The notes below the pieces were generated by a model that was not told the DNA's origin, made no database searches, and was given only the letters and a program-made list of their open reading frames with translations. The position numbers and the translations under genes are program-made. From positions 1-62,020 of the forward strand of contig NZ_JHVJ01000031.1 in the NCBI RefSeq assembly GCF_000620085.1: DNA of 62,020 nt. Reading direction: 5' to 3'. Of this stretch, positions 36,913 through 53,832 are shown one piece after another (the first letter of the stretch is position 1; each line of letters opens with the position of its first letter). The stretch is from Marinobacterium jannaschii DSM 6295 (GTDB lineage Bacteria; Pseudomonadota; Gammaproteobacteria; Pseudomonadales; Balneatricaceae).

Positions 36913-36927
36913 ATCGAACTTTTCAAT
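36913..36927. promoter_or_regulatory. LysR-type box, one mismatch (ATCGAA-N3-TTCAAT)
   Basis: Shares the core of the boxes at 40688 and 53817. Located 115 bp upstream of the oxygenase start within the divergent region. The 357-bp interval 36799-37155 otherwise holds a 24-bp palindrome and AT-rich promoter-like sequence. Confidence 0.65.
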
Positions 36928-37030
36928 GCAATGTTACCACTTTAAATAAAGTACCTTAGAGACCCTCTCTATATAAACCGGCATTAAAACGATGAATTCA
37001 GCCCAATTTAATCACTCAACCCGTATCTGA

Positions 37031-37054
37031 TATCGAATATTTAAATATTTGATA
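37031..37054. promoter_or_regulatory. 24-bp palindrome upstream of the DddP-like gene
   Basis: TATCGAATATTTAAATATTTGATA is self-complementary except for one mirrored pair. It includes an ATCGAA half-site and a TTTGAT half-site spaced 10 bp apart, wider than the box at 36913. About 100 bp before the start codon. Confidence 0.6.
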
Positions 37055-37155
37055 GGAGGCATCGATTTTTTAATTTTCACTGGCGGGAACTAGTTGATAG
37101 CTTGATGCTTCGAGCGTCGGCAATTCGCCGGCCCTTTAGCGACAGGAGCTACCCT

Positions 37156-38358
37156 ATGCAGGCGCAGATCAGTGCCCCGGACTTCAGTGAAAACGAACTC
37201 GATACGCTGTTCGACTACAGGCTGGCGCGCATCCGTGCAGCGATGAAACAGCAGCAGGTGGATCTGTGCATACTCAGCAATCCGGTTAACCTGCGTTATG
37301 CGGTCAATTTCGACGAGTATCAGGTGTTTCAATCCCATATCCCCACCTGTTACCTGTTCCTGCCGCAGGAAGGACCGTTGCAGATGCACGGTGCCACCAG
37401 CCGTTCGCTTCCGGGGGTGGAACACTATCAGGCTTCCGACTTTCTGACCCCGTTTGATGGCGGCCTGGATCTGGATCGCAACTGCCGCCGCTTTAGCCAG
37501 TCGGTGAGCGAGACCCTGCGCTCCCTCGGGCTTGATCCTGCCGATGCGACTGTCGCCCTGGAACGCTTTACCCCCCTGGCAACCCTGGCCCTGCAAGCGG
37601 CCTCCATCAGGCTGACCGATGCCGAATGTATCGTCGAGCGCGCCAAGCTGATCAAGCATGAAACCGAGATCCGCTGCATGCGTCACGCCATCGCCGTTGC
37701 CGAGCTCGGTATCGCCCAGATGCATGACCAGTTACGTCCGGGCATCAGCGAAAATGAACTCTGGTCGGTACTGCACCAGGTCAATATTGCTCATGGTGGC
37801 GACTGGATCGAGGGCCGGATGCTGGCGTCCGGCCCGCGCACCAATCCCTGGCTGCAGGAGGCCACCGGGCGGTGCATCGAAGCGGGTGATATGGTCGCTT
37901 TCGACACCGACCTGATCGGCCCGATGGGCTTTATCGCCGATATCTCCCGCAGCTGGATCTGTGGCGGCGGCCCGGGCAATGCCGAGCAGCGCGCCGCCTA
38001 CCGCCATGCCTATGACGAGATCCAATTCAATATGGAACTGATCCGTCCCGGCGTCAGCTTCAAGGAACTATCCGACAACGCCTTCCAACGCCAGCCGGAG
38101 TACAAGGCCAATCGCTATGTCTGCTCTTTCCATGGGGCCGGACTGTCGGATGAGTATCCTAAAATCTATTACGAAGAGGACTGGGGACGCAGCGGTTATG
38201 ACGGCATCATCGAGGAAAATATGGTGTTCTGCGTCGAAAGTTTCTCCGGTGCCGAGGGTGCCCGCGAGGGGGTAAAACTGGAGGAGATGGTCAGGGTCAC
38301 GGCTGATGGCTATGAAAAGCTATCGACCTATCCGTTTGAAAGCGAGCTGCTGAGTTAA
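37156..38358 (+). CDS. DddP-like M24-family protein (candidate DMSP lyase)
   Basis: 400 residues from the ATG at 37156, which has AGGAG upstream. The creatinase/aminopeptidase (M24) fold carries six metal ligands D250, D252 (FDTD), D262, H326, E361 and E376, and D332 lies where DddP has its proposed catalytic base. Each position is 45 less than the number I recall for the Ruegeria DddP structure, and GGDWIEGRMLASGPRTNPW matches the DddP segment well. DddP cleaves dimethylsulfoniopropionate to DMS and acrylate. A related non-lyase M24 enzyme remains possible. Divergent from the oxygenase. Confidence 0.75.
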   Translation: MQAQISAPDFSENELDTLFDYRLARIRAAMKQQQVDLCILSNPVNLRYAVNFDEYQVFQSHIPTCYLFLPQEGPLQMHGATSRSLPGVEHYQASDFLTPFDGGLDLDRNCRRFSQSVSETLRSLGLDPADATVALERFTPLATLALQAASIRLTDAECIVERAKLIKHETEIRCMRHAIAVAELGIAQMHDQLRPGISENELWSVLHQVNIAHGGDWIEGRMLASGPRTNPWLQEATGRCIEAGDMVAFDTDLIGPMGFIADISRSWICGGGPGNAEQRAAYRHAYDEIQFNMELIRPGVSFKELSDNAFQRQPEYKANRYVCSFHGAGLSDEYPKIYYEEDWGRSGYDGIIEENMVFCVESFSGAEGAREGVKLEEMVRVTADGYEKLSTYPFESELLS

Positions 38359-38386
38359 AACTAAACCAGACGGACTGATCGCCCGT

Positions 38387-38409
38387 GCGGCCCCTCTCTG
38401 AGGGGCCGC
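38387..38409. terminator. Strong hairpin between convergent genes
   Basis: 10-bp stem GCGGCCCCTC/GAGGGGCCGC with TCT loop, no T-run. Separates the DddP-like gene from the FrhB-like gene. Confidence 0.65.
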
Positions 38410-38422
38410 CACTGTGTTGAAC

Positions 38423-39703
38423 CTATTCACCCGAACAGGGGCAGGCTTCTGATGCCTTACCCTCCCTGACCCGCTGCCGGGTTCCATCCCGCTGCTCGCG
38501 GTTAAACTCTATCCCCTGCGCTTCGCCCAACCGGTTCAACCGTAGCCTGGCATGCTGGATACCCAGGTGCCCCTCGGCCATTAACCCTTCGATACGTGCC
38601 GCTGCGGCCTGCTTCTTATTCACCAGATGGGGCTGGTAACTATCCATATCCCGTGGCGTGATCGCCTTCCCCAGTGTTAATGTCCTGGCATCTGCCGCCG
38701 ACTGCAGCAATGCCTGCCCGGCGACTGTTCGGGCAATAATGGTATTGGTGCCCGGATCTTCCGCCTCTGCCTCGGTATCCACAGTACAGTTTGGCCAGCT
38801 ATCGGCAGCGACCAGATCAGCGCCCTCAGCCATGCCATCGGGACAGATCTTGCAACGAAACGGCAGTGACCAGCCAGCTTCATCCTCGCCCCAGAAATCG
38901 GAATAACGTCGCTCGATCACCCGCCCATCCGTCGACTCAAATCGGGTCGGCCCGGGACAACCCCGGCCACGGAAACGCACGTGCTGTAACACATCCGGGG
39001 CCATCCCCAATTCGGCAGCGTAGGCCTCCACCGCCTTAGGTTCGCGAAAGCCGCCACAGACCGGCGCCAGCCAGTACTTCACCAGCTGGTCGACCCGGCT
39101 ATCCTGACGGGCATAGTTGCGCAGTGCGGCGATATCGCAGGGCTTGCCGATAAAGGCAAACGGCTGGTTACGCTCCAGGATCTCCAGGATGTCGATTAAC
39201 GGCGCTGCCGGCCCATAGCGCGAGCCTGTTGCCTCCCAGACATCGGCGGCATCAAAACTGAGGTGACGCTGGCCGAAAATGGCATGCTGCTGTGAAGCTT
39301 TCACATGCAGGACAAAATCGACTTCGCCGCTGGCAAGCAGGTGTGTTGCCAAGGCCGTCAGTGCCCCACCGGTGGAGGCCTCAAACCGTACCCGGGCATC
39401 AGAAGCCCAACCCAACGTCATCCTGCGATAGCTACCCCAGGTCTCGTCATACTTGCTATCCGAGGCTATAAGCCGTTGCGGCATACCTTCAATCACGATT
39501 CCGGGACAATGCTGGTAGATCTGATCCACCACGCTGTCATCAAGTTCCCCCACCACTACCGGCCGCTCAAAGCCGCTGGCCACTTTACACATCTCAACGT
39601 TCTCTGCCCCGGCAAGGGACTGGCATAAGCCGCACCCGGTGCACATTGCCTCTTCGACAATACGGTACAACCGTTGTGTAGGCGACTGGCTAATCTCACT
39701 CAT
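38423..39703 (-). CDS. FrhB-like iron-sulfur protein (coenzyme F420 hydrogenase/dehydrogenase beta family)
   Basis: 426 residues. The N-terminal cluster motif is CTGCGLCQ followed by a further Cys (EMC). The FrhB core has STGGALTALATHLL, KPCDIAALRNYAR, GRGCPGPTRF and the second cluster region FRCKICPDGMAEGADL. The C-terminus is Cys-rich (EACPCSGE). Family members reduce or oxidise deazaflavin, flavin or other substrates with FAD and 4Fe-4S clusters. F420 is uncommon in this kind of host, so another electron acceptor is plausible. The start at 39701-39703 has GAGGAG upstream; it lies 10 bp after the DMT gene, as one operon. Confidence 0.82.
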   Translation of the reverse strand: MSEISQSPTQRLYRIVEEAMCTGCGLCQSLAGAENVEMCKVASGFERPVVVGELDDSVVDQIYQHCPGIVIEGMPQRLIASDSKYDETWGSYRRMTLGWASDARVRFEASTGGALTALATHLLASGEVDFVLHVKASQQHAIFGQRHLSFDAADVWEATGSRYGPAAPLIDILEILERNQPFAFIGKPCDIAALRNYARQDSRVDQLVKYWLAPVCGGFREPKAVEAYAAELGMAPDVLQHVRFRGRGCPGPTRFESTDGRVIERRYSDFWGEDEAGWSLPFRCKICPDGMAEGADLVAADSWPNCTVDTEAEAEDPGTNTIIARTVAGQALLQSAADARTLTLGKAITPRDMDSYQPHLVNKKQAAAARIEGLMAEGHLGIQHARLRLNRLGEAQGIEFNREQRDGTRQRVREGKASEACPCSGE

Positions 39704-39713
39704 CGCGTACTCC

Positions 39714-40601
39714 TCAGCATCGCTTGTTTTCGGCTCGTCCGATGGCGATCGCATAGAGGCCGCTGCCAATCACGATGGCAGCCCCCAGGATCGTCCAGCC
39801 ATCGGGTAACTCGGCAAACACCACCACCCCAATCAGGGTGGCGAACAACAGCAAACTGTAGTTGAAGGGTTGCAGCATCGACGCCGGAGCGTACTCCAGC
39901 GCTTTGACCAGAAACAGGTGTCCGGCAATCCCGCTGACCGACAGGATGCTCAGCATCAACCACTGATCAGAGTTGGGTGGTTGCCACTGGGGAATACCGA
40001 ACAAGCTGCCACCGATGCAGCCCACCAGCGCCATATACAGCATATTGGTATCAAAGTTGTCGTGGCGGCTGACCTTGCGAGTGATGATATTGTAGAGGGC
40101 GAAAGTGACGGCAGCCGACAGGGCAATCAGCGCCTCAGGTTTAAACAACCCCAGGCCCGGGCGAATAATAATCAGGGTGCCGATAAAGCCCACCAGCACT
40201 GCCATCCCGCGTAGCCGCCCCACACGTTCCCCCAGCAAAGGTCCCGCCAGCACAATTGCGAGCAATGGGAAACAGGCCAGCAGGGCATGGGCCTCAGCCA
40301 AGCCAAGATAACGTAACGAGAGATTGAAGATTGCGATCTCCGCCACAGAGAGGATTGAGCGTGATAACTGTAAGCCGAGATGCTCCGTCCTAAAGGCTTG
40401 GCGAAGTGTTCCCCTGAGATGGAGGTAAACCACGGCAAACAGGGCAAATATCCAGTACCGCACCATCACAAATTGCGCCACCGCCATATCCTGCACCAAC
40501 ACCTTGGTGATGCCATCCTGGGTTGCAAATACCAGCATCGATAGCAGGCACAACACAATCCCCTTTCGCGCCGCTACATTTTCCGAGTGAACCAGCTGCA
40601 T
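39714..40601 (-). CDS. EamA/DMT-family transporter
   Basis: 295 residues with ten hydrophobic segments in two EamA halves (ATQDGITKVLVQDMAVAQFV; ALIALSAAVTFALYNIITRK). Inner-membrane metabolite exporter or importer; substrate unknown. First gene of the operon with the FrhB-like gene and divergent from the LysR at 40874, with paired LysR-type boxes in between. It may carry the substrate or product of the FrhB-like enzyme. Confidence 0.85.
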   Translation of the reverse strand: MQLVHSENVAARKGIVLCLLSMLVFATQDGITKVLVQDMAVAQFVMVRYWIFALFAVVYLHLRGTLRQAFRTEHLGLQLSRSILSVAEIAIFNLSLRYLGLAEAHALLACFPLLAIVLAGPLLGERVGRLRGMAVLVGFIGTLIIIRPGLGLFKPEALIALSAAVTFALYNIITRKVSRHDNFDTNMLYMALVGCIGGSLFGIPQWQPPNSDQWLMLSILSVSGIAGHLFLVKALEYAPASMLQPFNYSLLLFATLIGVVVFAELPDGWTILGAAIVIGSGLYAIAIGRAENKRC

Positions 40602-40665
40602 TGCACACCTGCCCCTGTACTGAATGACTTGCCCGACAATAGCAGGGGAAACTCAGGCTCTCCCA

Positions 40666-40702
40666 ATTGAATTTTTCCACTATGGCGATCGAAAAGTTCG
40701 AT
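40666..40702. promoter_or_regulatory. Paired LysR-type boxes (perfect box at 40688)
   Basis: A perfect ATCGAA-AAG-TTCGAT (40688-40702, extended to GATCGAA/TTCGATC) and a degenerate ATTGAA-TTT-TTCCAC (40666-40680) are spaced 22 bp apart, about two helical turns, as for recognition and activation sites of LTTRs. T-N11-A is satisfied. It lies between the DMT operon and the LysR gene. Confidence 0.75.
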
Positions 40703-40873
40703 CCGTGCAAGGGTAGCTTGCGACTGCTCTGGCTATCGCTAACGCAGTTCAAGTCACGAAAAGTATGTAATTTGCGCCACCTCTGCTCTGCCCCCGCCAC
40801 CCTTATTGATTCAATAATCAGTTATTACTAGCCTCATATATCTAATTTCTCAATAACAACAAGAATAAGCATC

Positions 40874-41749
40874 ATGAACATCAACCATATGCGCGCCTTT
40901 CTCGAAGTCGCCAAGAGTGGCAGTTTCCAGCTGGCCGCCGAGCGCCTGCATATCACCCAATCCACCGTCAGTTCACGCATCAAGGTGCTGGAGACCCAGC
41001 TGGGCAGCTCGCTGCTGATCAGGAAACGGGATGGTTCCGAGCTGACCAGTGCTGGACGGCATTTTATCCGTTTCGCCCATACCGCTGTGCGCGCCTGGGA
41101 GCAGGCCCGTCAGGAAGTGGGGCTACCCGATGAACTGAAGTCAGTGATCTCGCTCGGCGTGCAACTCAATCTCTGGGACCGGATGGCACCGCCCTGGATC
41201 GACCGGATGCAGCATAAACTACCCGAGATCGGCACCCGGGTGATGATGGATTATTCGGAAAACCTGCTGGAGGCGATGAGCAACGGCGAGCTGGATCTGG
41301 CGATCACCTTTGTCCCGCGCCAGCAGGCGGAGCTGGTGAGCGAATTCCTGATGGAAGATACCCTGGTACTGGTATCGACCGAGCCGCGCAAGGCGGTCAA
41401 GCACTGGATGCCCGACTATGTCTTTGTCGACTGGGGTGCCGAATTCAGGGCGGCCCACGCCCAGGCCTATCCGGAGACCCGGGCGCCCAAGCTCAGCGTT
41501 GGCCTCGGCATGGTGGGGCTGGACTATATCCTGCGCTACGGCGGCTGCGGCTATTTCCCCGAACGCAGCATCGAGTCACTTATTAACCAGGGCAAGCTGT
41601 TCTATATCGAAGATGCGCCCAAGTTCCAACGTCCGGTGTATATGGCCTATCCCAAGGAGCCGGTGGATATGGAGTTGCTGGAGATCGCCATTGAAACGCT
41701 GCGCGAAGTGGTTTCCGATGATATGAGTACCAACCAGAACGTCAGTTAG
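40874..41749 (+). CDS. LysR-family regulator (paralogue of 57074)
   Basis: 291 residues. The HTH reads SFQLAAERLHITQSTVSSRIKVLETQLG and is near-identical in plan to the regulator at 57074 (SFQKASENLHITQSTVSARIKTLEDRL). Their effector domains also correspond (YVDWG.EFR..H.QAYP segments). Divergent from the DMT/FrhB-like operon, it probably binds the box at 40688 and the related boxes at 36.9 and 53.8 kb. The 3' end overlaps the convergent HxlR gene by 4 bp. Confidence 0.9.
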   Translation: MNINHMRAFLEVAKSGSFQLAAERLHITQSTVSSRIKVLETQLGSSLLIRKRDGSELTSAGRHFIRFAHTAVRAWEQARQEVGLPDELKSVISLGVQLNLWDRMAPPWIDRMQHKLPEIGTRVMMDYSENLLEAMSNGELDLAITFVPRQQAELVSEFLMEDTLVLVSTEPRKAVKHWMPDYVFVDWGAEFRAAHAQAYPETRAPKLSVGLGMVGLDYILRYGGCGYFPERSIESLINQGKLFYIEDAPKFQRPVYMAYPKEPVDMELLEIAIETLREVVSDDMSTNQNVS

Positions 41750-42090
41750 CTGTGCTGCTCGATCTCCTGCTGCAACGCTTCCAGCTCATCAAGAATACGC
41801 AGGAACTTGTTGCCGAACGGGGTCACTACGTACTCAACCCGGGGCGGGGTCTCGTTGTAGGCAATGCGCTCGAGAATGCCAAACTCGACGTTCTTACGCA
41901 GGCAATCGTTCAGCACCTTGGTGGTCAGTCCCTCGACACTACGGACCATCTCGCCCGGCCGGTTTATGCCAGCGGCCAGTAGCTGGTAGACGGTCAGCGA
42001 CCACTTGCAGCCATAGATCGTCTCGACCATGCGGGCACTGCGCGCCGGGGCAGATTTTCGGGAAAATATTTTTTCGTTATTTATCATCAA
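41746..42090 (-). CDS. HxlR-family transcriptional regulator
   Basis: 114 residues. The winged HTH has the HxlR features [23 protein letters not shown] and [24 protein letters not shown], then YVVTPFG at the wing. HxlR proteins often sense electrophiles or substrates of an adjacent oxidoreductase. Divergent from the SDR gene (96-bp gap), so it probably regulates it. Confidence 0.85.
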
Positions 42091-42186
42091 GATGTACCAA
42101 AAAGTAACTACCTAACCAATTTGTGCTTACTTTTTCCGTCACAGTCTGCAGACGTATTCTGCCTCCACCAGACAGGAGGTATCAAT

Positions 42187-42954
42187 ATGAACTCAGCAGA
42201 CAAAACTATCGCACTCATTGTCGGCGGCTCCAGTGGTATTGGATATGCTACCGCGAAACAACTCGCAGCAAAGAATATAGAAACCGTGATTGTCGGGCGG
42301 AATCCAGAGAAACTGGAGTCAGCCTATCAGGCGCTTTCAGCTTTAGCACCCAGTCAATATATCGAAGCAGATCTTTATACGGATTCAGGTCTACAGGCGG
42401 TAATAAGCTTTGTGCAGGAAAACAAAGGCCATATTAAATATCTGGTTAATGCTGCAGGGTATTTCAATCCCCTGCCATTTCTTGAGCATGGTCACGACGA
42501 TTACGAACAATACCAACAGTTAAACCGGGCGCTGTTTTTTATATCCCAGGCGGTAGCGCGCAATATGCAAACCCAGGGAGGAGGCTCAATCGTCAACATC
42601 GGTTCGATGTGGGCGAAACAGGCAATCAAGGCCACACCCTCATCCGCCTACTCGATGGCCAAGGCAGGACTGCATGCACTGACGCAGCATATGGCGATGG
42701 AACTGGCCGAAGCCGGTATCCGCGTCAATGCCGTCTCTCCGGCCGTGGTCAAAACCCCGATCTATGAGGAGTTTATCCCGCAAGAGAGTATTGATGAGCA
42801 GTTGGCGGGGTTCGACGGCTTTCATCCGATTGGCCGTATCGGCACCGCCGAAGATGTTGCCAGCAGCATCAGCTTCTTGTTGAGCGATGAGGCCAGTTGG
42901 GTCACCGGGGCTATCTGGGATGTGGATGGTGGCGTTATTGCTGGCAGGAACTGA
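42187..42954 (+). CDS. Short-chain dehydrogenase/reductase
   Basis: 255 residues from the ATG at 42187, preceded by AGGAGG. The cofactor motif is GGSSGIG (NAD(P) binding), then NAAG, catalytic Ser in NIGSMW and YSMAK (Tyr/Lys). Classical SDR length; the C-terminal [13 protein letters not shown] is typical. Substrate unknown. Likely controlled by the divergent HxlR regulator. Confidence 0.88.
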
Positions 42955-42989
42955 ACCGGCGGGCCATGCCCGAAGCTAGCCGTGGAATA

Positions 42990-43778: not shown

Positions 43779-44726
43779 CTAGTCACTTGCGGCTAACCTC
43801 TTTTCCAAACGTTGAACACCCCAGGACAGACTGCTGGTCAGCACCAGATACAGTAAGGCCACGGTAAACCAGACTTCGAAAGGCGCGAAACTACCCGCGA
43901 CAACCTCCCTGCCCGCTTTGGTCAGGTCGGTAATGGCGATAACAGAGACCAGCGACGAGTCCTTGATCAGGTTGATAAACTGGCCGGCCAGCGGCGGCAA
44001 CACTCGCTTGAACGCCTGAGGCAGAATCACGTAGCGCATCGCCTGGATATAGGTCATTCCCACCGAGCGGGCTGCCTCCATCTGTCCCTTGGGGATCGAC
44101 TGAATACCGCCGCGGGTAATCTCTGCAACATAGGCGCCGGAGAAGACGGCCAGAGCAATAACACCGGCAGTAAAGCGGTCCAGGTCCAGCACCGTGCCGA
44201 TAAAGAAGTAGAAGATAAAGATCTGTACCAGCAATGGCGTGCCGCGGATGATCTCAACGTAGGTGATCGCCAGGTTACGTAGCGCTACATTAGAAGATAC
44301 CCGCATCAGGCCGAAGATCAGGCCTAAAATGATCGCCAGTATCAGTGAATAGATCGATATCTCAATGGTGACCACCAGGCCTTTCAGCAACGGCCCCATC
44401 TGCCAGTTGGGCTGACTTGCCAGCTGCTCACCCTCGAAGACCAGGTCTCCCTCGCCAACGCTCAACTCCGGATACGCCGACAGGTTCAGAATCTCGTCAC
44501 CCGCGTCTGTACGCAGCACCAGATCTCCTGTGGCATTTGCAGAAATGGTGCCCTCCTCCGAGGCAAAGACCGGCAGCGGGTCGGTGTTAATCAGGTAAGG
44601 CTTAACGACCTGCCAGTTCCAGTTGTAGTTGATATGGCTACTGCTGCTCTGGATCAGCAGCGCCATCCCCAGTAGCACGGCGATAAACACCCCGTGCCAA
44701 AACCATCTGTTCGATTGCGCAAACAT
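43779..44726 (-). CDS. Amino-acid ABC transporter permease
   Basis: 315 residues of the HisM/GlnP type. After an N-terminal membrane segment comes a periplasmic stretch of about 70 residues ([21 protein letters not shown] region), then five membrane helices and the EAA loop [22 protein letters not shown] that docks the ATPase. It is the only permease of the operon, so it probably works as a homodimer. Confidence 0.9.
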
Positions 44727-44790
44727 TCAGCTCTCTCTCTGTTGTAATTATCGAAGAACGCGGCCGGAGGACCGACCGCCGCCGAATGGC

Positions 44791-45597
44791 TTACTGCACC
44801 TGGCTCAGCCAGGCATCGCTCTTAAACCACTTGTTGTAGATACGCTGGTAGGTCCCGTCGCCCTTGATCTGGCTGAGGTAGTTGTTGAGGAAGTTGAGGA
44901 AATCAGTGTCGCCTCGTCGCACCGCCCAGCCCAGGGGCTCATGGGTGAATGGCTTGTCGAGATGGGTTACCGCCCCCTGGTGCCGTGAGGCATAAATGGC
45001 GTTGTATGGCATGTCATAGACAAAGGCATCCGCTTTGCCGCTTGCCAGTTCCAGCACGGCATCTGTCTCGGTTTCAAACAGGTTTACAGTCGCCTTAGGC
45101 AGCAGCCTCTTAACGGCTGCGTCACCGGTCGTGCCCAGCTTCGTCACCACCCTGTATTTCGGGTCATTCAGGTCACGGTAGTTTTTGATGGTGCCATTGA
45201 GTTTTGGCGACAGCAGAATGGACTGCCCCACTACGATATAAGGTTCGGCAAAACTCACTTTCATGTTGCGCTGCGCGGTCACCGTCATGCCCGCCATGAT
45301 GATGTGGCACTTGCCGGTCTGAAGCGATGGGATAATTCCGTCCCAGGCCGTATTCACCGGCACGTATTTAACCCCCATCGCCGATGCCATTTTTTTGCCC
45401 AGATCGATATCAAATCCCATGAACTTGCCCGCTTTGGACTTCATTTCAAAAGGCATGTAACCGGCATCAAAGCAGACTTTCAGTTCGCCAGAAGCACTGA
45501 TCTCATCCAGCGTGGACTGACCCGCATCGGCGGCCAGCGCTGCGGTGGATAGAAAGATGCCAAAGCCTGAGGCCAGTAATTTGGATGCTTTATTCAT
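44791..45597 (-). CDS. Polar amino-acid ABC transporter substrate-binding protein
   Basis: 268 residues. The signal peptide ends at ALAADA. The SBP family 3 core has LKVCFDAGYMPFEM, FMGFDIDLGKKMA, WDGIIPSLQTGKCHIIMAGMTVT and LGTTGDAAVK with the usual ligand-binding Thr/Arg positions. First gene of the ABC operon. Ligand probably a basic or neutral amino acid, by context. Confidence 0.9.
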   Translation of the reverse strand: MNKASKLLASGFGIFLSTAALAADAGQSTLDEISASGELKVCFDAGYMPFEMKSKAGKFMGFDIDLGKKMASAMGVKYVPVNTAWDGIIPSLQTGKCHIIMAGMTVTAQRNMKVSFAEPYIVVGQSILLSPKLNGTIKNYRDLNDPKYRVVTKLGTTGDAAVKRLLPKATVNLFETETDAVLELASGKADAFVYDMPYNAIYASRHQGAVTHLDKPFTHEPLGWAVRRGDTDFLNFLNNYLSQIKGDGTYQRIYNKWFKSDAWLSQVQ

Positions 45598-45755
45598 TTT
45601 GAGCTCCGTATCTATTTATTATTTTCAGTGCCTGGTTTTCAGGCCAAAAAGCGCACTATTTCTTTCAGGCCTCATCTGTCGTGTAACCTATGTAGATGCC
45701 CGGCCCCTTAGCCCTCCAGGGCCGTTGCTTACACAAGCCACGATCAAAACCTGAA

Positions 45756-46703
45756 TCAGCGTGTCGCCAGATGGATACCCGCCAGCATGCAGCGCACTGA
45801 ACCACCGGCAAGCTCGATGGTCGGGATATCGAGCACCACGAAGCTGACATATTGCTGCAGGCGTTTGCGCTGCAACTCGTTCAGGGCATTAAAAGCGGTG
45901 CGGGATAGCGCCAGCAGGCGTCCATTGGGTGATGCCAGCTCCAGCACGTTGCCGGCGAACTGATCGATCTGTTCCTGGCTCAGTTCAATCACATCGCGTC
46001 CGGATGCTTTGAGGCGATCAACCACCGCCTGGCGGCGCGGCTCGTCGCTGATCAGTTCGGTACCGACCATGGCGAACTCGGTGCCGACGCTCATCATCAC
46101 GTTGGTGTGATAGACCGACTGACTGTTGCGATCTGCGGTGGTAAAGGCCATCGGCTCGTAGTTGAAATGGGTACAGAATCGCTCCAACGCGATCTCGTTG
46201 GCACGATTGGATTTGGCGGTATAAGCCACACGCTCAATGTGATCCAGCACCATGGCGCCAGTACCTTCGAGGAAGATCTGATCCTGCTCCAGGCCGGAAT
46301 AGTCGATCACATCCTGGACATAGCAACGTTGCTTCAGCGCCTCGATAACATCGCTACGCCGCTCCAGACGCCGGTTGTTGGAATACATCGGATAGAGCGC
46401 TATATGCCCGCCGGAATGGGTGGAGAACCAGTTGTTCGGAAACACCGAGTCCGGGGTTGCTTCACCTTCATCGTCGTAGAGGAAGACCTCGACCTGGTGC
46501 TCACGCAGCTTTTCCGCGGCGGCCGTTACTTCTTGGTAGGCACGCTGTGAAACCTGGGGCTTTTCTTCGCTGATGGATTGCTTTTGGTAGGCATTGTCCT
46601 CAGCCGTATCCGGATTGGGATAGAAACAATGGGGCCGGATCATCACCACTGCGCGTGGAGACTGCACTGAAAGCCGCACCTGATAATTACTGCTTGCCAT
46701 CAT
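45756..46703 (-). CDS. ctlX: CtlX-like amidinotransferase-fold hydrolase (citrulline utilisation)
   Basis: 315 residues of the GME (guanidino-group modifying) fold. FPNNWFSTH near residue 90, the acidic FLEGTGAMVLD, the His region SVYHTNVMMSVG and a C-terminal Cys in GGSVRCMLAG make up the Cys/His/Glu site. CtlX-type enzymes hydrolyse citrulline to ornithine; arginine deiminase or dimethylarginase activity is the alternative. It starts 3 bp after the cyclodeaminase gene, fitting a citrulline-ornithine-proline route. Confidence 0.85.
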   Translation of the reverse strand: MMASSNYQVRLSVQSPRAVVMIRPHCFYPNPDTAEDNAYQKQSISEEKPQVSQRAYQEVTAAAEKLREHQVEVFLYDDEGEATPDSVFPNNWFSTHSGGHIALYPMYSNNRRLERRSDVIEALKQRCYVQDVIDYSGLEQDQIFLEGTGAMVLDHIERVAYTAKSNRANEIALERFCTHFNYEPMAFTTADRNSQSVYHTNVMMSVGTEFAMVGTELISDEPRRQAVVDRLKASGRDVIELSQEQIDQFAGNVLELASPNGRLLALSRTAFNALNELQRKRLQQYVSFVVLDIPTIELAGGSVRCMLAGIHLATR

Positions 46704-46706
46704 CTG

Positions 46707-47759
46707 TTATACCGCCACTTTAGCTTTCTGTTGTACGGGCTCATTTGCCAACAGCAGCTGAAAGAGATTTTTCGGGTTATCGAGTTGAGGAATCAGATTG
46801 AAGTCGCTACCCAGCTCGCCCTGGCAGGCGTACTCGTGCAGCATCCGCAACGCAGAGTAGTCTTCCAGCGCGAAACCAACAGAATCGAAGACGGTGATCT
46901 GCTGCTCCTCGGTACGACCCGGCTGCTCGCCGGCGATGACCCGCCACATCTCGGTCACCTGATGGGAAGCCGGCAGTTGCTGGATATCGCCCTCGATACG
47001 AGACTGGGGTTCGTATTCGACAAAGATCTCGGACTGCTCGAGCACCGCCCGCTCCAGCTCGGTTTTGCCCGGACAATCGCCGCCCACTGCGTTGATATGA
47101 ACGCCCGGAGACACCATGTCCGCGGTCAGGATGGTGGCCAGCCGCTTGTCCGCGGTGACGGTGGTAATAATGTCTGCCCCCTCACAGGCCTCTGCCGCCG
47201 ATGGGCAGATCTCCACCTTGAGGTCCGGGTAACCGCTCAGGTTAGCCTTGAGTTTCTCACTGGCCGCAGGATCCACATCGAAGCAACGCAGCTCGGTAAT
47301 TCCCAGCTGCGAATGGAATGCCAGCGCCTGGAATTCACTCTGGGAACCGTTACCGATAAGTGCCATCGAGGTAGAGCCCGGACGCGCCAGGTACTTGGCA
47401 GCCATCACTGAGGTCGCCGCTGTGCGCAGTGCGGTTACCAGAGTCAGTTCACTCAGCAGCAGCGGGTAACCGGTGCCGACATCAGCCAGCACGCCAAAGG
47501 CCATTACCGTTGGCAGCAACTGCTGAGGGTTGTTGGGATGTCCGTTGACATACTTGAAGGAGTACAGCTTGTCGTCCGCAATCGGCATCAGCTCGATAAC
47601 GCCGACCTCGCTATGGGCGGCCAGGCGGGCAGACTTATCAAACTCGCCCCAACGCAGGTAATCCTGCTCCAGGTAGCCCACCAGTTTTGACATTAGTTCG
47701 GTGGCTGACCGACGGCGTATAAAGTGGCTTAGAGATGCAACATCAATGAAATGGGTCAT
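46707..47759 (-). CDS. Ornithine cyclodeaminase
   Basis: 350 residues. The mu-crystallin/OCD fold has GNGSQSEFQALAF as the NAD-binding loop, KYLARPGS just before it and NAVGGDCPGKTEL with the catalytic Asp. It converts ornithine to proline plus ammonia. Co-transcribed ahead of the CtlX-like gene, and divergent from an Lrp regulator that likely responds to the amino acid. Length fits full OCD rather than the shorter ketimine reductases. Confidence 0.88.
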   Translation of the reverse strand: MTHFIDVASLSHFIRRRSATELMSKLVGYLEQDYLRWGEFDKSARLAAHSEVGVIELMPIADDKLYSFKYVNGHPNNPQQLLPTVMAFGVLADVGTGYPLLLSELTLVTALRTAATSVMAAKYLARPGSTSMALIGNGSQSEFQALAFHSQLGITELRCFDVDPAASEKLKANLSGYPDLKVEICPSAAEACEGADIITTVTADKRLATILTADMVSPGVHINAVGGDCPGKTELERAVLEQSEIFVEYEPQSRIEGDIQQLPASHQVTEMWRVIAGEQPGRTEEQQITVFDSVGFALEDYSALRMLHEYACQGELGSDFNLIPQLDNPKNLFQLLLANEPVQQKAKVAV

Positions 47760-47881: not shown

Positions 47882-48334
47882 ATGTCAGAAATAGATCATC
47901 TGGACCGCCAACTCATCAGCCTGCTGCGAACAGACGCCAGAAGCTCCGTGGCCTCCCTGGCCAAGGCGATCGGTACCTCAAGAGCCACAGTACAGAACCG
48001 CATGAGTCGGCTGGAAAAGCAGGGCGTGATCACCGGCTACACGGTGCTGCTCAGCAGTGAGAGCGACGAGGCACTATCCAGAGTACGGGCGATGATGAGT
48101 ATCAAGATTGAAGGTAATTGCTCGATGAAGATTCGCGAGAAACTGAGCCAGGAACCCGCAGTCCTGGCGTATCACTCCACTAACGGGCGCTGGGACCTGG
48201 TGGTAGAGTTGCAGGCCAATAGCCTGGAGGCATTCGATAAGGTACTGGGCAGAATCAGAACGATAGCGGGTATCGCAGCCTCAGAGACCAGTATTCTGCT
48301 GTCATCGAAACGCTTTGGTTCAAACAATATCTAG
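47882..48334 (+). CDS. Lrp/AsnC-family regulator
   Basis: 150 residues from the ATG at 47882. The HTH is DHLDRQLISLLRTDARSSVASLAK with SRATVQNRMSRLEKQG, then an RAM effector domain (VLAYHSTNGRWDLVVELQA). Divergent from the OCD/CtlX-like operon, so the likely signal is ornithine, arginine or citrulline. No strong ribosome site visible. Confidence 0.88.
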   Translation: MSEIDHLDRQLISLLRTDARSSVASLAKAIGTSRATVQNRMSRLEKQGVITGYTVLLSSESDEALSRVRAMMSIKIEGNCSMKIREKLSQEPAVLAYHSTNGRWDLVVELQANSLEAFDKVLGRIRTIAGIAASETSILLSSKRFGSNNI

Positions 48335-48349
48335 GCAGCCAATCCATCT

Positions 48350-48553
48350 GGCACTGCGGCTACGTCACAAAGCGAGTTAGAACTGCAGCTAACCTTGGCC
48401 CCGTGCTCTGCAAAGGGACACGGCCAACCCTCGCTTTTCATTTCTTTTAGCACTGCAAGTGCTTTAAAAGTGCTATTGCAGCTTTTCGGAAGCACCCTTG
48501 ATACCGCCTTCGTCAACAACCCCTTTGAAGGTTTTCAGTCCGATTATTTCCAT
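48350..48553 (-). pseudogene. Degenerate LysR N-terminal remnant
   Basis: From the ATG at 48551-48553 the frame reads MEIIGLKTFKGVVDEGGIKGASEKLQ, the standard start of a LysR HTH, then hits a stop. Shifted-frame pieces downstream (GLAVSLCRARG) continue the family pattern. The effector domain is gone. It lies divergent from the DMT gene at 48825, which it probably once regulated. The interval 48554-48824 holds nothing else recognised. Confidence 0.65.
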
Positions 48554-48824
48554 ACTGTTCGCTTTTTATGAACTAAATTCCATGAAAGATTCATAATTCA
48601 CGGTAGCAAAAATATTACCGAAACGATCACCTCAACATCTAAGACGAGATTCCTCACTATCCCCCGCAAAATTTACCTACCTGTATCTGTTTCAAGACGC
48701 TGATCAATACTAATCTGGGCTGGCCTTATCTGCCGTACCGCATTGGTGGCAGACATCAAATCACAACCCTGTCACCGTCATTGATAGATGGACTGACCTG
48801 CAGCTAACCGGAAGGAGAACACCG

Positions 48825-49712
48825 TTGGACAACACCCGAGGCAGCCTTTTTATGATCCTCGCCATGGCCGCGTTTGCCGTGGAGGATATGTTTATCAAAG
48901 CCGCCTCGGTGAATATGCCAACCGGACTGGTGCTTGCACTGTTTGGCTTGGGCGGAACGCTGCTGTTTATGCTGCTTACCAAACAACGGGGCGAGCAGAT
49001 CATCCATCCGGCACTGCTATCCAAACCGATTTTGTTGCGCGCGGTCTCCGAAATCACGGGCCGATTGTTCTACACCCTCGCAATCACACTTACCCCGCTT
49101 TCCAGTGCTTCGGCAATCCTGCAGGCCACGCCATTGGTGGTCGTGATGGGTGCGGCATTGCTGTTCGGTGAACGCGTTGGCCTTAAGCGTTGGCTGGCGA
49201 TTCTGGTGGGCTTCGTGGGTGTGTTGATGATTATCCGTCCTGGGCTGGAAGGTTTTACGCCCGCATCGATCTTTGCGGTGATCGGTACGTTGGGCTTTGC
49301 CGGAAGAGATCTGGCGACCCGTGCAGCACCACCAGTGTTATCCAATATGCAGCTGGGTGTGTACGGTTTCTTTGTGTTGATCCCAACCGGGTTTGCCCTG
49401 CTGATCTATTCCGGTGAAGCGATCTCATTTGATCCAGGCGCATCCGTGCAGATTCTTGGCTCAATCATCTTTGGTGTGATCGCCTACAACGCGCTAACCA
49501 TCGCCATGCGTACCGGCGATGTGTCGGTGGTCACGCCGTTCCGCTACACCCGTCTGATCTTTGCATTAATTCTGGGTATCTTTGTCTTTGGCGAACGTCC
49601 GGATCTGATGACATTGATGGGGGGACTGCTGATTGTGGTCAGTGGCGGCTCTACCCTGCTGAGAAATCGACGCGCTATCCGATCTGCTGCATTAGCTAAA
49701 AAGGCGCATTGA
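48825..49712 (+). CDS. EamA/DMT-family transporter
   Basis: 295 residues, ten membrane segments in two EamA repeats (FMILAMAAFAVEDMFIKAAS; ASIFAVIGTLGFAGRDLATRA). The start is TTG at 48825 with AGGAG seven bases upstream. It resembles S-adenosylmethionine- or metabolite-exporting DMT proteins, but the substrate is unknown. The stop codon lies within its terminator. Its ancestral LysR neighbour is degenerate. Confidence 0.82.
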   Translation: MDNTRGSLFMILAMAAFAVEDMFIKAASVNMPTGLVLALFGLGGTLLFMLLTKQRGEQIIHPALLSKPILLRAVSEITGRLFYTLAITLTPLSSASAILQATPLVVVMGAALLFGERVGLKRWLAILVGFVGVLMIIRPGLEGFTPASIFAVIGTLGFAGRDLATRAAPPVLSNMQLGVYGFFVLIPTGFALLIYSGEAISFDPGASVQILGSIIFGVIAYNALTIAMRTGDVSVVTPFRYTRLIFALILGIFVFGERPDLMTLMGGLLIVVSGGSTLLRNRRAIRSAALAKKAH

Positions 49713-49730
49713 GAGTCCAATGCGCCTTTT
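49701..49730 (+). terminator. Rho-independent terminator overlapping the DMT stop codon
   Basis: AAGGCGCATTG/CAATGCGCCTT stem followed by TTTGATTT. The stop TGA is within the left arm and loop. Confidence 0.92.
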
Positions 49731-49761
49731 GATTTGTGCCAGTTTCAGATACTACTCCTGA

Positions 49762-50664
49762 TCACCAGCCCATGTGGTAATACGCCCAGATACGTTCGAT
49801 GTTCATCGGCAACCAGATGTCGTAGTTGCGCCAGTGTTCGTATTTCGGCAGTTTGACCATTTCGCGCAGCTTGTCCGGGCTATGCACGCCTTCATCCATC
49901 GCCTTCTTCACCGCCGCCATCAGATCTTCCAGGTATTCACGCTGCTCTCTTACCACGGATACTGTATCGATCGCCGGCTCGGTGTGAGGACCGTGTGCAG
50001 TGATAACGTAGTCCGCATCCAGTTGCTCGATCTCTTTTAGCGAGCGCACCCATTCATCCGGCCAGAAGTCTGGCATGATGCGGAACGCCACACGGCGCGG
50101 GGTCACGATGTCGACCACAAACAGAATCTTCTCTTTCGGCAAACGCATCACAATCAGGCTGTCACCGTGGTTCGGACCGAAGTACTGAAGTTCCAGCGTA
50201 CGACCGCCCAACTCCAGCGTGTAAGAGTCATCAAAGGTGATATCCGGCAGTGGAATAACCGGGCTTGGATGGTCCTTCATCTCCTTCACAAAATTGGTGT
50301 GGCTGATAAATTTTGCACCCTCGTCCTTGAAGATATTGCCGCCCGAGATGTGGTCATGGTGGTTGTGACTGTAGACCACATACTTCACCGGCTTGTCGGT
50401 CACCTTACGGATCTCTTCGCGCAGCAGCTTCGCCGCTTTTGGATTAAGCGGATCGGTCACGATCACACCCTCGTCGGTAACGATGAAGATATTGCGGTAT
50501 ACCCACCAACGGAACACATAGAGCCCGTCACTGATCTGCTTCACGCTGTGGCCAAACGCCTGACCACCCATCGGTTCGCTTACCGGATAATTGGAAGACG
50601 CAAATGTAAGCGTCGATATCATCAGGCCCACAACCATCAGGGCTCGCGTAAATAGAGTTTTCAT
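49762..50664 (-). CDS. Exported metallo-beta-lactamase-fold hydrolase
   Basis: 300 residues with a signal peptide (LMVVGLMISTLTFAS). Metal motif SHNHHDHISG (H-x-H-x-D-H), further ligands in FGPNHGDSL, VVDIV and TAHGPH. Both metal sites look complete. This resembles MBL proteins associated with PQQ- or sulfur-oxidising systems rather than lactam resistance. It is last in a cytochrome b561-GST-MBL operon. A periplasmic thioester, glutathione-adduct or lactone hydrolase is inference. Confidence 0.85.
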   Translation of the reverse strand: MKTLFTRALMVVGLMISTLTFASSNYPVSEPMGGQAFGHSVKQISDGLYVFRWWVYRNIFIVTDEGVIVTDPLNPKAAKLLREEIRKVTDKPVKYVVYSHNHHDHISGGNIFKDEGAKFISHTNFVKEMKDHPSPVIPLPDITFDDSYTLELGGRTLELQYFGPNHGDSLIVMRLPKEKILFVVDIVTPRRVAFRIMPDFWPDEWVRSLKEIEQLDADYVITAHGPHTEPAIDTVSVVREQREYLEDLMAAVKKAMDEGVHSPDKLREMVKLPKYEHWRNYDIWLPMNIERIWAYYHMGW

Positions 50665-50692
50665 CGATCTGTCTCCTGCCTCTTATTTGGAA

Positions 50693-51460
50693 TTATTTAT
50701 CCCACCACTGGTTCTGAACCTGGGCCTGGGTGTAGCTTCGGCGTTTTTGCATCCGCTGGTAGTAATCACCAATCGCCGGATATTCCGAGCCATCAATCCA
50801 GTCGGTATAACCAAGCAGATCAAGCCGTGAGAGCACCACCGTCCAGATCACGTCCGCCAGCGAATAACACTCGCCCAGCAGATACTCACCCTGGTGCAAC
50901 CGCTCCTCTGCAATATCCAGCGCCTCCTGTGCTTCGCGCTCCATACGCGCCACATGAAACGCATCCACCCGGAACTGCTTACTCTTTTCAGAACGCTCCG
51001 CGCAGGTCAGGTAGTTGTCCTTCAGCTCAGGATGTTCTTCCGAAAGCCGAAGTGATTTCTGAATTCGTCGATCCAGAATACGGCCTGACTTCTCCATCGA
51101 TGGATGCCGCGCATAACTCAGGATCTGAAGGTCGATGGTGTCCGCCAGATCAACCAACTGCTCCATCTGGATTTGATCTTGCGCGTCCTGCGGTAACAAA
51201 GGATTCCCGTCAGGTAACGTGGCGATAAAACGGATGATCCGTGCCGAATCGGTAATCACCTCTTCATTGCCGTTATCGAACTCCAGGGTAGGCACCACCC
51301 CGTTTGGATTGAGCTTCAGATACCACGGGTCCAACTGTTCCTGGGCACGTATGATGTCGATCTCACGCCCGGCCCATACCAATCCTTTCTCTTCCAGCGC
51401 CAGCCGCACTTTCATGGAACATACTGACAATGGATGGTGATGAAGCTTTATCGAATACAC
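50693..51460 (-). CDS. Glutathione S-transferase family protein
   Basis: 255 residues. The thioredoxin-like N-domain has LHHHPLSVCSMKVRLALEEKG (Ser/Cys at the glutathione-activating position), the cis-Pro in GVVPTLEF and the ITDSARIIRFI segment; a helical C-domain follows. It lies between the cytochrome b and MBL genes with 28- and 37-bp gaps. Together they suggest detoxification of an electrophile or reduction of a quinone-like compound. Confidence 0.85.
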   Translation of the reverse strand: MYSIKLHHHPLSVCSMKVRLALEEKGLVWAGREIDIIRAQEQLDPWYLKLNPNGVVPTLEFDNGNEEVITDSARIIRFIATLPDGNPLLPQDAQDQIQMEQLVDLADTIDLQILSYARHPSMEKSGRILDRRIQKSLRLSEEHPELKDNYLTCAERSEKSKQFRVDAFHVARMEREAQEALDIAEERLHQGEYLLGECYSLADVIWTVVLSRLDLLGYTDWIDGSEYPAIGDYYQRMQKRRSYTQAQVQNQWWDK

Positions 51461-51497
51461 CTTGTTACTCCTCTTTTTATGTCTCGCTAAATCCGGA

Positions 51498-52064
51498 TCA
51501 CACCCGTGGTTTCAGGGAAGTCATGCGTGGCAGTACGTCCGCTTTTGGATCGTCCAGGTAGCGGTGTTTCAAAGCACCCGCCACGTGCAGAATAATCGCG
51601 CCCATCAACGCATACACCATTGCCACATGTGCCTGTTTTGCCAGACCTGCCATCTCTGGGTTCTTGGCAATCACCATCGGAAACTCAACCAGACCAAACA
51701 GGCTCACCGGGAAACCGGAGAAGTTCGACATCGCCATACCACTGAACGGAACCGCCAGCATCAGGATGTACAGCAGTGCGGTGATTGTGCGGGACAGTTG
51801 TTTCTCCCAGCCGGACAACACCTCAGGCAGCTGCGGCCGGGCACTGATGCGGCTCCAGATCACGCGGAACACCGCTAACTGCATAAAGATCGCACCAAAG
51901 GATTTGTGCATCCCCATCAGTTGCAATCGACTCGGATCGGCTTTATCGAGACCCGTCATATAGCTGCCAACCACCACCAGCGTCAACAGCATCAATGCCA
52001 TCCCCCAATGAAGGACCTTGGTGACTGCGCCGTACTTAAACTCTGCATCGCGAATACCCGTCAT
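51498..52064 (-). CDS. Cytochrome b561-type membrane protein
   Basis: 188 residues with four membrane helices. Haem-ligand histidines occur in TKVLHWGMALMLL, MGMHKSFGAIFMQ and, in the last helix, AIILHVAGALKHRYLDD. It belongs to the bacterial cytochrome b561 family that passes electrons between quinol and periplasmic acceptors. First gene of the operon, divergent from the LysR at 52195. Confidence 0.88.
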   Translation of the reverse strand: MTGIRDAEFKYGAVTKVLHWGMALMLLTLVVVGSYMTGLDKADPSRLQLMGMHKSFGAIFMQLAVFRVIWSRISARPQLPEVLSGWEKQLSRTITALLYILMLAVPFSGMAMSNFSGFPVSLFGLVEFPMVIAKNPEMAGLAKQAHVAMVYALMGAIILHVAGALKHRYLDDPKADVLPRMTSLKPRV

Positions 52065-52117
52065 AACTCACCTCTCTTATCTAAACTGGTCGCACTTAGG
52101 TCATGCTTGAGACCTGA

Positions 52118-52130
52118 TAAGACAAGCTTA
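52118..52130. promoter_or_regulatory. Candidate T-N11-A LysR box
   Basis: TAAGACAAGCTTA, with TAAG/CTTA dyad, in the 130-bp divergent region between the cytochrome b561 operon and its LysR gene. Only short dyad symmetry, so tentative. Confidence 0.4.
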
Positions 52131-52194
52131 TTGTTTTCTTAAAGATCGATATACGCGCTACAATTCAACACATTGTTAACTCAGAAATACCAAT

Positions 52195-53082
52195 ATGAAC
52201 TTCTTAACACTGATGGAAACATTCGCGGTGGTCGTAGAAACGGGCAGTTTCACCGCTGCGGCGGAACAGCTCGGTCTGTCAAAGGCGTTTGTGAGCAAGC
52301 AGGTCTCTGCGCTTGAGAAGGAACTGGGTACACGGCTGTTGTACCGTACGACACGGAAACTCAGTTTGTCGGAAGAAGGCACGCGGCTGTACAACCATTG
52401 TCAGCTCATCATGCGCGAAGCACAGAATGCGCGCGCCGAGATTATCGATAGCCAGAGCACGCCGCGTGGCCGGATCAATATCACCATTCCGCAGAGTTTG
52501 ATCATCTCGGGTGTAGGTTCACTGCTCCTGGACTTTCAGGCGCAATATCCGGATATCGAACTAAATGTAATCGCCAGTGGGCGCGTAGAAGATCTGGTAG
52601 AGAAAGGGATCGATATCGCGCTGCGGGTTGGGCAACTGGAAGACTCCACGCTGATCTCGCGTAAGCTTGCCGACTGCAGCTTTCAGGTGGTCGCCGCCCC
52701 CACCTACCTGAAGCGCAACGGCGAACCCACTGAGCCCGCCGACCTAACCCACCACAACTGTCTGATTTACGGTGAATCCAAATCGAACCGTAACTGGCCA
52801 TTTCAGCTCAAAGATGGCGAATTCATCACCATCAAGGTCAAAGGCAATCTGACCTGCAACGATGGTACGCTGATCTACAACGCTGTATTGAACGGCCAAG
52901 GCATCGGCTACGGGCCGAGCTTTTTGTACGAGAAACCGTTAGCGGATGGCAGACTGAAATCACTTCTGTCTGAATTCAGCCAACCGCCGACTGCGATTTC
53001 AGCGCTCTATCCCCAAAACAGAAACCTGTCACGACGTGTACGCATACTGCTCGACTACCTCGCTGAACGCCTGAATAGCTGA
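52195..53082 (+). CDS. LysR-family regulator
   Basis: 295 residues: HTH SFTAAAEQLGLSKAFVSKQVSALEKELG, then an effector domain with the CrgA-like tail (GIGYGPSFLYEKPL, ISALYPQNRNLSRRVRILLDYL). Members of this branch often regulate detoxification operons. Divergent from the cytochrome b561/GST/MBL operon, which it likely controls. Confidence 0.9.
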   Translation: MNFLTLMETFAVVVETGSFTAAAEQLGLSKAFVSKQVSALEKELGTRLLYRTTRKLSLSEEGTRLYNHCQLIMREAQNARAEIIDSQSTPRGRINITIPQSLIISGVGSLLLDFQAQYPDIELNVIASGRVEDLVEKGIDIALRVGQLEDSTLISRKLADCSFQVVAAPTYLKRNGEPTEPADLTHHNCLIYGESKSNRNWPFQLKDGEFITIKVKGNLTCNDGTLIYNAVLNGQGIGYGPSFLYEKPLADGRLKSLLSEFSQPPTAISALYPQNRNLSRRVRILLDYLAERLNS

Positions 53083-53257
53083 CAAGCTGCTCGCATAGCT
53101 CCCACTTCTGGGGGCTGAAAGTCGGCGTCATCATCGTCGTCAGCGTAATTGTTTCTCCCTAAGCAATTTCATGTACAAAACCTACATGTTTAGTCTGGTT
53201 ATCGATCGTTTACTCGAATGAACTTGTGGGTTCACATCCGATGACGTAGTAGCCAAG

Positions 53258-53430
53258 ATGTCCGGAAAAAACCTCTCCCAACTACCCGCACTGGAAGCCC
53301 TGTTCGATAATGTGGCTGATGCCGTATATCTGATCGATCCGGAAACTTCCAATATCGTCTGAGGTAACAACCCAAGCGTGGAAAAGTCTGGGAATGAGCA
53401 AAGAGGACATCTTCAAGCCCCCCTGTGTCA
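53258..53430 (+). pseudogene. PAS-domain signalling protein remnant
   Basis: MSGKNLSQLPALEALFDNVA, then DAVYLIDPETSNIV, begins a PAS domain. A TGA at 53360 sits where PAS homologues have Trp (IVWGNN), and a one-base insertion then moves the match to QAWKSLGMSKEDIF. Only about 60 residues remain of what would be a sensor or GGDEF-type protein. Confidence 0.7.
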
Positions 53431-53473
53431 GCATAGTTGTCGCCTCTCCTGATTTATCAAGGAGAGTGAACAA

Positions 53474-53602
53474 ATGGCTTGATATCCAACCGAACTGAAA
53501 GCCTCGGTTATCCAGAAAATGATGCCACCCAACAATGTACCGATGGCGCAACTGGAACGTGAAACAGGCATCAGCAACGTAACCCTGTACACTATTTTTT
53601 AA
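53474..53602 (+). pseudogene. Transposase helix-turn-helix (OrfA-like) remnant
   Basis: ATG preceded by GGAGAG; in-frame stop at codon 3, then YPTELKASVIQKMMPPNN and LERETGISNVTLYT, the N-terminal HTH of an IS3-like OrfA, ending prematurely at 53602. A remnant of an IS insertion. Confidence 0.7.
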
Positions 53603-53815
53603 TCCAGACCATTCTGATTATTCGGCCTATTCCCTACAACATTAACTTTAAAACACCCCGAAAAACGTATCGGCACTCTTAAACAAAATCCGATATCAAT
53701 CTGAGACAGGTTATTTTATTCCTTCATAAAATCTTCAAATAGATTCTGATTTATTCACAACAACAAGATTTGTCCTGACTAAATTCCGTAATAGACCCAC
53801 CCGCCATTAATCTGA

Positions 53816-53832
53816 TATCGAATTTTTCGATA
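53816..53832. promoter_or_regulatory. Perfect LysR-type box (TATCGAA-TTT-TTCGATA)
   Basis: Identical half-sites and spacing to the box at 40688; contains T-N11-A. It lies 82 bp before the SMR start codon and probably drives the four-gene operon 53914-56968 under the paralogous LysR at 57074 or 40874. Confidence 0.75.

Follow-up and report, generated by a model that had tools for sequence, protein, structure and literature searches.

The operators of LysR-type regulators are the closest described systems: the accessible parts of the cited papers describe a T-N11-A recognition site, a second site at the promoter -35 region and a divergent regulator gene (PMC8407307, PMC11739112), and place recognition sites 'often around position -65' (PMC8407307). 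AcuZ is stated, in the accessible part of its report, to require AATTGATT and TATA-N8-GATA, with dddTD and dddCA-acuNK as targets (PMC13104084). Here, we analysed contig NZ_JHVJ01000031.1 of Marinobacterium jannaschii DSM 6295, a stretch of 62,020 nt (hereafter the window) in a genome of 5.18 Mb and 39 contigs, and in particular the palindromic box ATCGAA-N3-TTCGAT. This box lies before three separate units: a HalD-like oxygenase gene paired with a DddP-like gene, an operon of an EamA/DMT transporter and an FrhB-like protein, and an operon of a small multidrug resistance (SMR) transporter, a 2-hydroxyacid dehydrogenase (2HADH), a class II aldolase and a member of the 3-hydroxyisobutyrate/tartronate semialdehyde dehydrogenase family (HIBADH). 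The box is very probably the recognition site of a regulator from the subfamily of LysR1 and LysR2, two LysR-type proteins encoded in the window, which would control scattered catabolic genes of one pathway.

Pattern searches recovered the two exact copies of the box named in an original prediction on this DNA, at 40688-40702 and 53817-53831, and the copy with one mismatch at 36913-36927. As that prediction also held, all three are intergenic and upstream of genes, at a distance of 114 bp from the oxygenase, 86 bp from the DMT and 82 bp from the SMR start (the last set at 53914), and T-N11-A falls within the dyad. Nine matches with at most two mismatches were found in the window against 2.14 expected, a number reached by none of 100 shuffles. 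The earlier figure of 0.004 copies expected by chance was too small, as the 5.18 Mb genome holds five exact copies, of which three fall within long open frames. There, the string also reads as ordinary codons (in one frame Ile-Glu-X-Phe-Asp); one of these copies lies inside the DddP gene of contig C16, and the other two are in what we take, from their letters, to be DnaN-like and CarB-like genes. The two window copies are the only clearly intergenic ones, and correcting the chance expectation leaves the non-chance conclusion standing.

A census of the shorter form ATCGA-N5-TCGAT gave 49 copies in the genome, and all 49 places were inspected. Of these, 45 sit in stop-free frames 250 aa or longer, with the caveat that a long open frame is no proof of a gene; one further copy (L133) lies in a coding-looking frame of 184 aa, one (L125) is ambiguous, and only 40688 and 53817 are clearly intergenic. 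The contrast between coding and intergenic copies is clear. It had been considered beforehand that the box might be common in unrelated intergenic regions, and apart from the ambiguous case none of the 49 copies is clearly intergenic outside the window. Read backwards, the palindrome matches the genome once, although this is not a fair control since most of the 49 copies sit in coding frames.

A second element accompanies the palindrome. With the sites oriented so that the enzyme genes follow, TTCGTT was counted at offset 33, 17 bp past TCGAT, in 12 of 19 palindromes when one mismatch was allowed (six exact), while its mean over 95 offsets was 0.2 and the opposite side never gave more than two. 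Since the element was first spotted by eye on 31 stacked sites, mostly those later counted, this count is not an independent test. All four alphaproteobacterial sites carry it exactly, and it is present with at most one mismatch in eight of the remaining 15, which serve as a partial check. Of the palindromes in the strict upstream count given below, the set of 19 omits four, namely one of L048 (before the DddP-like gene), two of L056 and one of L064 (before LysR1), and it adds L046:3430. The full operator thus spans about 38 bp (ATCGA-N5-TCGAT, 17 bp, TTCGTT), and as judged from the letters the palindrome with its registered TTCGTT corresponds to the recognition-plus-activation layout of LysR-type operators. 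The original prediction had noted a degenerate second copy of the box at 40666, which is indeed present but weak, ranking eighth in a scan with the palindrome alone; it lies near the place of the second element, one base closer, a shift also seen at a site on contig C16.

With at most two mismatches, the composite occurs three times in the M. jannaschii genome, at 53817 (none), 36890-36927 (two) and 2459 (two, in a coding frame). Across 77 genomes, this one included, there were 16 matches with at most one mismatch in 15 genomes, compared with four when read backwards. Five of the 16 are at the gene cluster or before a LysR gene of the subfamily, one is intergenic and unlinked, and ten fall in open frames 150 aa or longer.

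Subsequently, a matrix was trained on 16 of the 19 sites, all outside the window and ten of them from loci in which a LysR1-type gene was the only LysR gene found. Among 123,950 window positions, it ranked 36913 (reverse strand, 42.9 bits) first and 53817 (40.9 bits) second, while the top composite score in 40 resamples of the window was 12.2. The third rank fell to 37039 before the DddP-like gene (20.3 bits), followed by 2459 in a coding frame (20.0 bits). Since 400 resamples of the intergenic stretches also reach 20.3, the 37039 site is unproven. The original prediction of a box before the oxygenase/DddP-like pair holds for the oxygenase, whose site is strong, but the DddP-like gene has a weak site only; this weaker site, at 37032-37053, had not been noted before. 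When scanned with the palindrome alone, the six best window positions all lie within the three intergenic stretches, with 53817 (25.8) alone exceeding the largest of 40 resamples (20.1).

These scans bear on whether a common hexamer pair simply recurs by chance in the boxes. Such a recurrence would be compatible with the five exact copies in the genome, three of them coding, and with palindrome-only scores of 36913 and 40688 that fall in the range of resamples, but other species repeat the box with the second element in register, and the composite scores of 42.9 and 40.9 exceed the 12.2 of the resamples. Chance is rejected for 36913 and 53817 by the registered second element, the held-out matrix and the resamples, and as an account of the whole it is hardly credible; the 40688 site taken by itself could have arisen by chance.

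The matrix was also applied to 13 further loci, of which 11 had been inspected beforehand and four (L047, L048, L050 and L052) come from genomes with another locus in the training set; a fourteenth, L065, was excluded as part of that set. The best site preceded a cluster gene or a LysR1-type gene in nine of the 13 (L047, L048, L056, L058, L066, L068, L069, L071 and L079). In L050 (10.7) and L052 (15.6), the best site has a low score and lies in the gap between the OpuAC and enolase-superfamily (MR_MLE) genes. L059 has its best site at the end of the DddP-like frame and the second best before the DddP-like gene, and in L078 the matrix gave no site.

The promoters were also compared with those of other genomes. 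G045 and Marinobacterium profundum have a similar oxygenase promoter across the palindrome and the second element. For the SMR promoter, compared in four genomes including two of Amphritea, CGATACCCC, CGTTTTACA with the -35 box, and the -10 box are invariant. The palindrome centre at 53824 is, by arithmetic, about 65 bp before the start near 53889 predicted from the conserved -35 and -10 boxes. An activation site at the -35 region, as in LysR-type operators, is found at the SMR promoter, is placed by register only at the oxygenase promoter and is missing at 40688. In G045, the region between LysR1 and the DddP-like and DMT genes carries a composite site of 25.5 bits directed to the latter two. 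An alignment of the DddP-like promoters of four loci was attempted, and none was usable.

The arrangement recurs in other bacteria. Loci were taken from relatives and from named genomes queried with the oxygenase; the latter gave 22 loci, including Pontibacterium, Amphritea, Marinobacterium, Pseudomonas, Leucothrix, Aestuariispira and Curvivirga as well as assemblies assigned to Thioglobus, Rhodobacteraceae and Pelagibacteraceae. Some of the gammaproteobacterial and alphaproteobacterial loci also have the palindrome in front of an oxygenase or aldolase gene, with a LysR1-type gene in divergent orientation. Absence of the box at orthologous promoters had been named as an outcome unfavourable to the proposal; instead, relatives carry the whole or part of it there. 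They also hold the genes in compact clusters, in line with the earlier prediction of one metabolic system in pieces. In Curvivirga and Aestuariispira, the order is LysR, then divergently oxygenase-HIBADH-aldolase-SDR-MR_MLE-SMR-2HADH, and in a Thioglobus assembly it is LysR, then divergently aldolase-oxygenase-HIBADH-FrhB-DddP-like-2HADH; the rest of the 19 mapped loci have fewer of the cluster genes. Within the order of M. jannaschii, LysR1 had matches at E ≤ 1e-60 in 3 of 293 genomes, its own included.

Both regulators have N-terminal HTH_1 and C-terminal LysR_substrate domains above the Pfam cut-offs. They are paralogous as originally claimed, with 40% identity over 283 residues, and the recognition helix TQSTVSARIK, with near variants, is common to the subfamily and nearly identical between the two. 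LysR1, LysR2 or both may regulate the operators. A short palindrome by itself names no regulator family, and it may be asked whether an unrelated dimeric regulator encoded elsewhere, for instance of TetR or GntR type, binds it while the LysR genes are mere neighbours. We consider this improbable, as the registered second half-site on the enzyme-gene side fits LysR-type tetramers, the boxes adjoin LysR1-type genes in many loci, and the palindrome (at most one mismatch) precedes 12 of 31 closely related LysR genes (190 bits or more) but none of 18 distant ones, although these genes are not mutually independent.

Several observations weigh against control by a LysR1/LysR2-type regulator, or against its extent. 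Under a strict count that allows a single mismatch over the ten bases and reaches 350 bp upstream, with the window genes and shared intergenic regions included, the palindrome was found before only 12/28 oxygenase, 10/23 LysR1-type, 3/12 DddP-like and 1/8 SMR genes, with 4/17 for the aldolase, 2/5 for DMT, 1/5 for FrhB-like and 1/6 for LysR2-type genes. It precedes none of 17 2HADH and none of 18 HIBADH genes, both of which usually lie inside operons, and a box before LysR2 orthologues was looked for and found in none of five. The 40688 site lacks a registered second element and reaches only rank 11 (9.4 bits) as a composite, and with the palindrome alone both 36913 (16.5) and 40688 (15.5, rank 4) fall below 20.1. 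In Pontibacterium granulatum (L062; Oceanospirillaceae), the palindrome is 281 bp from the oxygenase gene and has no second element, while the Thioglobus sites L076 and L077 read ATCAAC at its place. At the SMR promoter, three relatives lack the left half of the palindrome, which is seen in the window alone. Finally, the composite read backwards also gives three matches in the M. jannaschii genome at two or fewer mismatches.

The recognition of the box by a LysR1/LysR2-type regulator is proposed from the observed sites, their recurrence, the register and the gene linkage; binding and activation, an inducer and a substrate are predicted on these grounds. A tetramer of the regulator would occupy the palindrome and, upon binding a pathway metabolite, shift onto the activation site at the -35 box, thereby switching transcription on. 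The operator would control at least the oxygenase gene and the SMR-2HADH-aldolase-HIBADH operon, and possibly also the DddP-like gene. The 40688 site probably serves LysR1's own divergent region, through autoregulation, control of DMT-FrhB or both; autoregulation fits because only the palindrome is good there, and the tie to the DMT/FrhB operon is weaker than the other two. The control could also be split into two circuits, with LysR1 acting on the oxygenase and its own region and LysR2 on the SMR operon, through near-identical sites but in response to different signals. In relatives, LysR1 adjoins the oxygenase gene and LysR2 comes after HIBADH, and the SMR sites carry their own flank CGATACCCC. 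The almost identical recognition helices argue for a common circuit, as do the similar scores of both window operators with a matrix derived mostly from LysR1-type-only loci, and several such loci in which one LysR gene stands before an operon of all these genes. We regard two circuits as a possible arrangement, though not the favoured one.

Table 1. Predicted regulatory elements and genes of the three units and their surroundings in the window.
Feature	Position	Strand	Basis or remark
HalD-like 2-oxoglutarate/Fe(II) oxygenase, H-x-D, hydroxylase type	35917..36798	-	Pfam HalD 48.7 bits, cut-off 26
Candidate activation half-site CTCGTT	36890..36895	-	17 bp past palindrome
Predicted recognition palindrome, oxygenase promoter	36913..36927	-	ATTGAAAAGTTCGAT on reverse strand; matrix rank 1; aligned with G045 and Marinobacterium profundum
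Weak overlapping boxes in 24-bp near-palindrome	37032..37053	+	102-124 bp before DddP-like gene; 20.3 at 37039
DddP-like M24 enzyme	37156..38358	+	NCBIfam DddP 295 bits, cut-off 600; HGxGLxDE and other motifs in 12-sequence alignment
FrhB/FdhB-like protein	38423..39769	-	Domain match
EamA/DMT transporter	39714..40601	-	Domain match
Degenerate second box TTCAAT	40666..40680	-	One base closer than consensus register
Perfect palindrome between LysR1 and DMT/FrhB	40688..40702	-	No activation half-site in consensus register
LysR1, LysR-type regulator, HdfR-like	40874..41749	+	NCBIfam HdfR 130 bits, cut-off 240
Predicted recognition palindrome, SMR operon	53817..53831	+	Matrix rank 2; CGATACCCC invariant in 4 genomes
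Candidate activation half-site TTCGTT	53849..53854	+	One base common with -35 box; TCCGTT in three relatives
-35 box TTTACA	53854..53859	+	Invariant in 4 genomes
-10 box GATATT	53877..53882	+	17 bp after -35; invariant in 4 genomes
SMR transporter	53914..54288	+	Start at conserved ATG
GhrA-like 2HADH	54269..55222	+	Profile match
Class II aldolase/adducin-family protein	55270..56010	+	Profile match
HIBADH family protein	56075..56968	+	Profile match
LysR2, second regulator, LysR1 subfamily	57074..57925	+	Domain match, comparison with LysR1
MR_MLE remnant	58224..58598	-	72% identical to residues 166-283 of the Amphritea opalescens protein, plus short piece 342-361
Glycine-betaine/choline-type ABC binding protein	59056..60021	+	Homologues in 8/27 clustered loci

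The genes of these units (Table 1) most likely encode one catabolic pathway, with a quaternary-ammonium or sulfonium osmolyte as the likeliest substrate because of the DddP-like enzyme, the SMR protein and the betaine-type transporter. In Fe(II)/2-oxoglutarate halogenases, H-x-G or H-x-A replaces the H-x-D/E ligand motif. All 26 aligned oxygenase sequences have H-x-D (WHFDG in 22, WHYDG in two and WHFDS in two), and a halogenase was rejected on this basis. The DddP-like enzyme is rejected as a true DddP lyase of dimethylsulfoniopropionate (DMSP), as its score stays below the equivalog cut-off. In Amphritea (L050, L052), the corresponding place has a complete MR_MLE gene, whereas the window holds a remnant without an internal stretch and the N-terminal half, and no further pieces of it were found at this place. 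It occurs in 17 of 27 clustered loci, and its nearest match is talarate/galactarate dehydratase (273 bits, cut-off 500).

We tentatively suggest that a catabolic pathway not described so far, directed at an abundant marine onium compound, underlies the regulon. The HalD-like hydroxylase would act on the substrate, followed by enolase-superfamily and dehydrogenase steps; the class II aldolase would cleave the carbon chain, and in many Gammaproteobacteria the DddP-like enzyme would eliminate the onium group. If this is correct, the operator ATCGA-N5-TCGAT-N17-TTCGTT could be used to locate the pathway in genomes. A concrete operator in two bacterial classes would link about ten genes into one marine pathway and narrow the candidate genes. 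The substrate would become evident from the inducer of LysR1/LysR2 and, if an osmolyte, would bear on marine carbon, nitrogen and sulfur turnover.

Some further observations were made around these genes. Partial-looking LysR-domain and PALP pieces lie near the oxygenase within 31509-36057 (31509-32012, 34796-35176 and 35090-35701, the last just below the Pfam cut-off). A neighbouring set at 43779-47759 comprises an ornithine-cyclodeaminase-family gene, a DDAH-like gene and amino-acid ABC parts, of which only the binding protein was matched in the loci of relatives (25%, L066). In the two Amphritea genomes, weak operator-like sites (L050:7833 and L052:7761) both lie 267 bp before OpuAC. The LysR1-type gene of Pseudomonas violetae is broken into two frames (L079:8969-9846). 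The Pelagibacteraceae assemblies L078 and L080 have an oxygenase with 50% identity near a HIBADH-family gene, accompanied in L078 by dienelactone-hydrolase-like and iron alcohol dehydrogenase genes; no LysR1-type gene was matched within the 21 kb retrieved for these two loci. On contig C16, at about 103576-105845 (L056:7577-9846), a true DddP (649 bits, cut-off 600) adjoins a third LysR of the LysR1/LysR2 subfamily, 47% identical to LysR2, and an operator-like site at L056:9825 (29.2 bits, with TTCGTT one base closer) faces an aldo/keto reductase gene at 10258-11301.

In comparison with known proteins, LysR1 has its best NCBIfam match in the HdfR subfamily, yet it scores below the curated equivalog cut-off, and we know of no link between HdfR and this gene set. 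Like the DMSP lyase DddP, the DddP-like enzyme belongs to the M24 family and has HGxGLxDE as well as the aligned Asp, His and Glu motifs, which have roles in DddP, while most DddP-like sequences have a loop of the FQ-H-I-P type where the true DddP of contig C16 has LWITHN. Relative to LysR-type operators in general, as far as the accessible parts of the papers describe them, the present one differs in the sequence of its box and in its target genes, with the gap fixed at 17 bp and a single clear half-site. AcuZ/DddR, acting on DMSP genes, likewise represents LysR-type control of marine osmolyte catabolism, with a target set, in the accessible part of the report, that differs from this one (PMC13104084). 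Among the listed matches in the open-licence PubMed Central literature, the titles and abstract openings do not describe the box, the regulon or the joint pathway. Thus, while the layout of the operator is of the ordinary, known kind, the box, the regulon and the joint pathway seem to be new relative to those matches.

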